DNA of 49,797 nucleotides from Candidatus Gastranaerophilales bacterium (GTDB taxonomy: Bacteria > Cyanobacteriota > Vampirovibrionia > Gastranaerophilales > Gastranaerophilaceae), in NCBI GenBank assembly GCA_947594025.1, contig CANQDZ010000006.1, forward strand, positions 1 to 49,797, given 5' to 3'. Position 1 is the stretch's first letter; each line of letters begins with the position of its first letter. Position numbers and translations under genes: made by a program. A model generated the notes under the pieces. That model was not told the origin of the DNA. It saw only the letters and a program-made list of their open reading frames with translations, and did no database searches. Below are positions 23,650 through 25,561 of this stretch, piece by piece.

Positions 23650-25524
23650 CTAAATAGCTTCGTCTTTTGGAACCTTAATTCTTCTGAGTTTCCATTCTTC
23701 AAACCAGTTGTTTTTTTGAGTGACCTGAGAAGGATTTTCAACGACAACCTTATCATATTGTATTTTTGCGCTGTCTGAACCAAGCAAGAATACAACGTCG
23801 AGAGTGGTTCTATCCCTTACGCTGTCATAAGAAACTGCAAGTTTAAAATCCTCAGGTCCAACCATTGCATAGAACATGTTTTCCGTAAGCAAGTCTTTTT
23901 CGTAGTTATCTCTTAAAGGAGAAAGAGTTCCTCTGTATCCGATTGTTAAATATCTGCATAATCTAAAGTTTTCATCAATAGAGAATGAAACTTTACCGTA
24001 TCTGTAATCATCAAATACAAAAGGGCTTCTTCCGTGAACTCCGCCGAGACCTGCGTATATTCTTGAACCCCAGCCTTTTACCCTTGATTCGATATGAGGG
24101 TGAAATTTGGCAAATGCTATAAAATCGCCCGTACCATATAAAGTAGCACTTCCTATAGCACCTATATAACCTCTTAAGAACATATCCTGTTCTTTATTTT
24201 CTATATTTATAACTCTTTTGAAAAGTTGTCCCTGCCAGCCTAAACGCATTGTGCCAAGCTGGTGTTCTTGGTTATCTTCCGAATAGTCGGCGGCATAACC
24301 GCCGTTCACCCTTTGCATATAAGTTGCATCCAAATCTTTGTTATACCATTTTTTTTGATGAGCCAATTGTAATAAGTATCCTGCCCTTCTGTAGCCGTTT
24401 AACCATTCATTCATATATCCGTGACGTGCATATTCGATTTGCAGGTCGTCATTAATGCGATATTTACCTCTAAAAACCAAGTCACTGCTTGAAGTTCCCC
24501 AACCGGCTTCCAAGGTATTTCTTTTTGAACGATGTCTTACGATTGCGCCCACACCGGCTTTATCCTTATATACAAATGCGGGAACAACTTTGATTGTGGA
24601 GTTGCCGGGTGCTTTAAACACAAAACCCGGACCAACGTATGTACCAAAGCCGTTTAAAGAACCGATTTCAGGCATGTTTACTTCCGCATAACTTTGTTCT
24701 TTATCCGTGTATAAGCTGATTTCAGGTGCGGATGCTAATTTTAATTTTTTATAGAAAATTTCAGCGTCCTTCATTGTAATTTCATCATGACTTTTTCCGC
24801 CTTTTATTACAATTTCCCTTGTCTTTATTCTATATGGTTCAGACCTTTTCTTTCTCATCTCAAAAGTGGCATCTTCATCATCAATAACCGTTCTGTCATA
24901 AAAAGAACCAAAACCATGTGATTCAACCCTCATTTCAAGTTTTTCCGCAAGCTCTATATCGCCGTTTACGGCCTCCACCTTATTTGCGTAAGCGTAACCT
25001 TCCCTTGAAGTGATTTTAAATGTATCAAAATTTCCTATAGGTTCATTCATCAGAATATTTTCTTTATTTAAATCGATTATCATATAATCGCCCGTGATGA
25101 TACCACCGTCTTTATAAAGTTTGATATTGTCAAAAAGTTTCACATAATTTTCATTGTGGTTGAATATTGCCTTGTCCGCCTTTAATTTGATTTTATCAGG
25201 ATAAGTGACAATAACCACATTTCCTGTTGCAACAACCGTATTTTCATCATTATTATATTCCATTTTGTCGCAGTCAAGGGTCATTGATGAGGATTCTTTA
25301 GGTTGAGAAGCGCCTTCTTCGGCATTTTTTTCTTTCAGGTAATCAATAGGATTGGGGATGTAAATTCCTTCGTCAGTTATTTCTTTGCTAATCTCCGCAT
25401 TGTATTTTCTTGCATTGCTTTTAATCAAATCTTCTTCACTTTGAGCCTGAATAACTTCCATGGCACGCAGGGGAAGTGTCACAAAAATTAAAAAGATTAA
25501 AATTAATATATAACGCAGTTTAAT
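23650..25524 (-). CDS. lptD: LptD/OstA-like LPS assembly outer-membrane protein, probable ATT start
   Basis: LptD inserts LPS into the outer membrane. An N-terminal OstA jelly-roll region (LDCDKMEYNNDENTVVATGNVVI, LKADKAIFNHNENYVKLFDNI) is followed by many beta strands with aromatic girdle residues, consistent with a barrel; about 624 aa is short for LptD. The usual initiators give a poor start: GTG 25482 would begin after the hydrophobic core of a signal peptide. Extending the frame gives KLRYILILIFLIFVTLPLRA, a good signal peptide. A GAGG Shine-Dalgarno lies eight bases before an in-frame ATT at 25524, and no ATG, GTG or TTG is available there; CTG 25518 is the alternative. The ATG inside the Shine-Dalgarno (25538) is out of frame and stops after three codons. 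Confidence 0.8.
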   Translation of the reverse strand: MKLRYILILIFLIFVTLPLRAMEVIQAQSEEDLIKSNARKYNAEISKEITDEGIYIPNPIDYLKEKNAEEGASQPKESSSMTLDCDKMEYNNDENTVVATGNVVIVTYPDKIKLKADKAIFNHNENYVKLFDNIKLYKDGGIITGDYMIIDLNKENILMNEPIGNFDTFKITSREGYAYANKVEAVNGDIELAEKLEMRVESHGFGSFYDRTVIDDEDATFEMRKKRSEPYRIKTREIVIKGGKSHDEITMKDAEIFYKKLKLASAPEISLYTDKEQSYAEVNMPEIGSLNGFGTYVGPGFVFKAPGNSTIKVVPAFVYKDKAGVGAIVRHRSKRNTLEAGWGTSSSDLVFRGKYRINDDLQIEYARHGYMNEWLNGYRRAGYLLQLAHQKKWYNKDLDATYMQRVNGGYAADYSEDNQEHQLGTMRLGWQGQLFKRVINIENKEQDMFLRGYIGAIGSATLYGTGDFIAFAKFHPHIESRVKGWGSRIYAGLGGVHGRSPFVFDDYRYGKVSFSIDENFRLCRYLTIGYRGTLSPLRDNYEKDLLTENMFYAMVGPEDFKLAVSYDSVRDRTTLDVVFLLGSDSAKIQYDKVVVENPSQVTQKNNWFEEWKLRRIKVPKDEAI

Positions 25525-25561
25525 AATTATTTCCTCATCAGGTCTTATGTTTATTATTTTA

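Follow-up and report, generated by a model that had tools for sequence, protein, structure and literature searches.

Translation of the lptD-like gene on the minus strand of the window (the whole 49,797-nt stretch analyzed here, a single contig of a 1.5 Mb genome) probably begins at an AUU codon at position 25524, served by a GAGG Shine-Dalgarno (SD) sequence located 8 nt upstream. We give this reading, in which the AUU is a real start, a probability of about 0.85. An AUU start at this codon, as proposed in the initial annotation, is supported by conservation within the genus, by the SD spacing and by the lack of a canonical alternative. LptD is the outer-membrane lipopolysaccharide exporter and lptD is normally an essential outer-membrane gene. 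A literature search on lptD with a weak start codon found no such report. The conserved AUU start, together with the family's preference for weak starts at this gene, offers a testable case in which start-codon strength would set the supply of LptD.

The coding sequence (23650..25524, minus strand) runs from ATT 25524 to a stop codon at 23652-23650 and encodes 624 aa, with a match to the Pfam LptD_N family and fold matches between its AlphaFold model and the PDB. The frame that ends in this stop is open back to 25563 on the minus strand, and in the window sequence no ATG, GTG or TTG occurs from 25563 down to the GTG at 25482 (25480..25482), which is thus the first standard initiator. This GTG sits in the hydrophobic core of the predicted signal peptide IKLRYILILIFLIFVTLPLRA (25462..25524, minus strand, read from the translation and ending at a predicted cleavage site), which aligns with IIKLRYIYTMLLLFLTLPVCA in a relative of the same genus. 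By inspection and hydropathy, a signal peptide for export is present only if translation begins upstream of GTG 25482. A start at the GTG would leave none, in keeping with the earlier argument from the signal peptide that an outer-membrane protein requires, and the codon was rejected as a start on this ground. Gene callers that accept only ATG, GTG and TTG would truncate this LptD at GTG 25482 and drop the signal peptide.

The 5′ end of the gene in the window reads GATGAGGAAATA ATT ATT AAA CTG CGT TAT ATA. The GAGG (25533..25536, minus strand, read from 25536 to 25533) stands eight bases before the in-frame ATT 25524 (25522..25524) and five bases before a second ATT at 25527 (25525..25527). 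The ATG at 25538 opens a frame of three codons only, ATG AGG AAA TAA (25527..25538, minus strand), which overlaps the SD sequence; with this early stop, and with its counterpart ATG absent in the same-genus relative, it was discarded as a start for lptD. All of the sequence statements and coordinates that the initial annotation gave for lptD hold on re-reading of the window.

On the modelled fold we accept the gene as a divergent LptD, and by sequence as (weakly) LptD-like. Its N-terminal (OstA/LptA-like) domain, PF03968, scores 22.9 bits and lies above the cut-off of 20.4, and a Pfam profile search for the C-terminal family, PF04453, gave no match anywhere in the source genome. The PF04453 model matches in just 2 of 14 control genomes and so fails to reach distant LptD proteins; the name LptD-like therefore reflects the sequence of the gene, and the name LptD its fold. 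Weak matches to chains of both LptD and LptA (E 0.01-0.04) come from a profile of eight family members. The AlphaFold model was built with 28 members of the family and has a mean pLDDT of 74.5; a Foldseek search of the PDB with it returned LptD, whose solved structures combine a jellyroll and a barrel, at every one of ranks 1-14 with a best E of 1.2e-14 and low TM-scores. A diderm envelope and genes for lipid A synthesis have been reported for Melainabacteria (PMC4040986).

The only same-genus genome compared was G001 (SUTW01000001.1, loci L002/L185, titled 'Cyanobacteria bacterium SIG30'), with 62% LptD protein identity; the genus comparison therefore covers two genomes, of which at least G001 is a metagenome assembly. 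Among the more distant relatives, many bear the title Candidatus Gastranaerophilales, the non-photosynthetic gut Cyanobacteria. The lptD 5′ end of G001 is AAGGGGATAA-ATT-ATA-AAA-CTT-CGT-TAT, or in a longer view aaaataAGGGGATAA ATT ATA AAA CTT CGT TAT ATA, and its first seven codons differ from those of the window at two third positions, both synonymous. The codon aligned with ATT 25524 is ATA in G001, where ATT stands one codon earlier, and the exact AUN codon varies within the genus. An in-frame TAA directly adjoins the ATT of G001, no ATG lies close upstream of it, and no canonical start in the G001 gene would leave a charged n-region. The TAA, the missing upstream ATG and the CTT together remove a frameshift from the window's ATG, a CTG start and a long N-terminal extension, and the comparison leaves AUU or AUA as the start of lptD. 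An internal ATG at codon 10 of G001 was also considered and rejected, since the peptide it would leave, MLLLFLTLPVCA, carries no positive charge and the window lacks an equivalent ATG. In the same G001 genome, two loci other than lptD, L123 (minus strand, about 15943) and L126 (minus strand, about 10378), carry a run of at least 10 G directly before prepilin-like N-termini FTLAEVLITLAIIGVVAALTIP and look like phase-variable pilin-like genes.

These data bear on whether the missing canonical start could be an artefact or a recent mutation, through a base lost near ATG AGG AAA or an ATG miscalled as ATT. The ATG at 25538 does lie near the IIIKLRYI frame, out of register with it, but the separately assembled G001 has no ATG there and carries a TAA immediately before its ATT, and further lineages likewise have no canonical start. 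We regard such an origin as extremely improbable. The agreement of G001 makes a local base-call error very unlikely, and an ATG at the codon of ATT 25524, which the initial annotation had named as the sign of an error or local mutation, was found in no relative within the genus (two genomes, with ATA in G001).

The choice among the neighboring codons was made from SD spacing. The reference was the set of 127 genus orthologs with a shared canonical start, 73 of which have an SD match of four or more bases, and spacing was normalized by taking the site of the final G in GGAGG as the origin. A normalized spacing of 5 is the one seen most often in the genus (21/73 genes). In the window, ATT 25524 has exactly this value, while ATT 25527 has 2 and CTG 25518 has 11, each of the latter two seen in 1/73 genes; in G001 the ATA is at 6 and the ATT at 3. 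AUU 25524 is preferred because its spacing is the mode of the genus. The GAGG is complementary to the 16S 3′ end CACCTCCTTT, with a duplex energy of -5.6 kcal/mol; this anti-SD was read in 10 family genomes, on which it rests, as the search for this end of the 16S in the genome of the window itself came up empty. Initiation at the adjacent AUU 25527 would have in its favor that both genomes of the genus carry ATT at that codon, but its normalized spacing is too short in the window and in G001 alike when set against the mode of 5, and an AUN at 25524 followed by AAA fits the AUN-AAA pattern of L187, L189, L190, L194 and L196, so that we consider this placement quite unlikely. The CTG at 25518 (25516..25518, minus strand), offered earlier as the alternative, found no support. 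CUG is a known weak start, and the window's ATT-AAA-CTG aligns with ATT-AAA-GTG in the neighboring genus g36, from whose GTG start the CTG could have descended; yet the codon is CTT in the same-genus G001 and GCT in L187, and its spacing of 11 is rare, which makes a start at the CTG very improbable.

lptD was found in 95 family genomes, of which 86 were readable at the start locus. Four of the 86, two of this genus and both genomes of genus g37, have none of the canonical starts upstream of the core of the signal peptide; three more automatic calls of 'none' were resolved on manual reading, which found a TTG or GTG. The g37 starts read GGGGAG TAA ATA AAA ATT AAC and GGGGAGAAAATCGAAA ATT ACT (AUU). 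A wider set of 46 named GTDB loci came from an alignment query (a single-protein query of the contigs matched none) and contains a further AUU case, L187, with GGAGTAAAGTTT ATT AAA GCT, the ATT of which aligns with ATT 25524. In the two g37 genomes and L187 the ATT lies 8-10 nt after a GGAG. The window, G001, G037, G066 and L187 have no canonical start that fits the conserved N-terminus.

In the LptD tree, the AUN cases occupy three separate places of one 27-row clade, a distribution in which AUN would be either ancestral, with later changes to ATG or GTG, or would have arisen several times. AUU is not fixed across the wider clade, since g36 (L186, L188-L197, L202) carries a GTG two codons downstream in 12/12 genomes. 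This GTG has an unusually long SD spacing, normalized 11 or 13 where measured, and in 6/12 of the genomes an ATT, ATA or ATC stands two codons before it, at normalized spacing 5 in the two measured genomes with a clear SD match. The g36 pattern may represent an intermediate, dual or migrating start, and the ancestral lptD start could have been the g36 GTG codon, which is CTG in the window.

To place these starts against a baseline, 145 non-overlapping ortholog pairs of the genus were used, of which 127 share a canonical start. The window genome starts these 127 genes with 107 ATG, 15 TTG and 5 GTG (non-ATG 20/127), and a second genome from another genus has 65 ATG, 6 TTG and 5 GTG in 76 genes (non-ATG 11/76), so that the non-ATG baseline is ~15% in both genome samples. 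At lptD, the 86 readable family genomes have 40 TTG, 20 GTG, 4 AUN and 22 ATG starts, a few loci with multiple candidates having been assigned by hand, and when counted by genus, 10/38 use ATG only. The excess of weak starts over the genome samples is large, with a Fisher p below 1e-14 that overstates it given the kinship of the genomes. The best reading of these counts is that AUU at lptD is the extreme of a family-wide habit of weak TTG and GTG starts. Among the 145 pairs, inspection of the 18 flagged ones gave infC as the only other clear case of an AUN start; the ortholog filter scores lptD itself as canonical, because within the signal peptide a GTG aligns by chance with a TTG, and can thus miss such genes.

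In the mechanism we propose, the GAGG would place the start at AUU 25524, where the initiator tRNA would read AUU as formyl-methionine. As a poor start, the AUU would have LptD made at a low set rate, and IF3 would discriminate against it as at other AUN starts, so that output would rise when IF3 is scarce. Actual initiation at the AUU, low LptD output and IF3 sensitivity are all points that we infer from sequence. The weak-start preference of the family suggests that a low rate of LptD synthesis is deliberate. In this respect, part of the initial annotation's proposal of a regulatory device holding LptD low stands, namely a weak-start set-point, mostly TTG or GTG, that is family-wide; regulation as such is hypothetical, with no significant leader structure. 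Folding of four lptD leaders showed no significant advantage over shuffled sequence. For most family members, lptD follows an upstream M23 peptidase gene at a distance of no more than ~20 bases. The six bases of TAAAAT (25556..25561, minus strand, read 25561-25556) are invariant in 14 aligned lptD leaders and may be the -10 box of lptD's own promoter in the clade; a consensus promoter scan at lptD scored no better than shuffles.

Another possibility, which we hold at rather less than even odds, is that the AUU is real but near-neutral, with few LptD copies needed and the start drifting in a small AT-rich genome with no regulation. The variation of the lptD start among ATG, TTG, GTG and AUN across the family fits with drift of this kind, as does the missing leader structure, but the strong excess of weak starts over two genome samples suggests selection for low output, as distinct from regulation. 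At the other end, AUN starts at lptD could make the rate at which lipopolysaccharide export is assembled depend on IF3 and on the cell's capacity for initiation. Outer-membrane biogenesis would then be under IF3-responsive control, a speculative reading that we think rather unlikely. The IF3 sensitivity expected of lptD would be either a by-product or regulation.

The closest comparison is infC, which encodes IF3. AUU is read by the initiator tRNA with low efficiency, IF3 discriminates against it, and infC uses this for feedback. To our knowledge, very few genes other than infC have a well-supported AUN start. The family's infC genes start with AUU, AUA or AUC, from which it follows that AUN starts are in use in the family, and in this genus the codon is ATC or ATA behind AAGGAG or AGGAG. 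The infC of the window genome (L049) has ATC (or ATA) behind AAGGAG, and in G001 (L059) an in-frame TAG leaves AAT ATC AGA, which points to ATC. The infC matches in G102, G107, G018, G012, G009 and G110 contain one internal TAA, perhaps because the match overruns the end of the gene. lptD resembles infC, present in this genome and family, in having an AUN start behind an SD sequence, but infC encodes the discriminating factor and forms a feedback loop, whereas LptD is unconnected with initiation; the infC SD here is also stronger (-9.1 vs. -5.6 kcal/mol). In the secondary account of Escherichia coli pcnB, an AUU start keeps a chromosomal gene other than infC low (Binns and Masters 2002, via PMC13009471); the product is a cytoplasmic poly(A) polymerase, in a gene and phylum unrelated to those of lptD. 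In Staphylococcus aureus, where in poor medium AUU/AUA starts yield ~10% of what AUG does, cvfC1 (AUU) and ccpN and citZ (AUA) likewise have AUN starts, conserved among relatives for cvfC1 and ccpN; they differ in having extended SDs and in having been demonstrated by ribosome profiling and reporters (PMC13009471), while the lptD SD is ordinary or weak. The GTC start of Streptomyces sigR, repressed by IF3 (PMC5472188), is a precedent for IF3 control of a gene other than infC with a non-canonical start, though the codon there is GUC and not AUU, and the product is a stress sigma factor and no envelope protein (PMC5472188).
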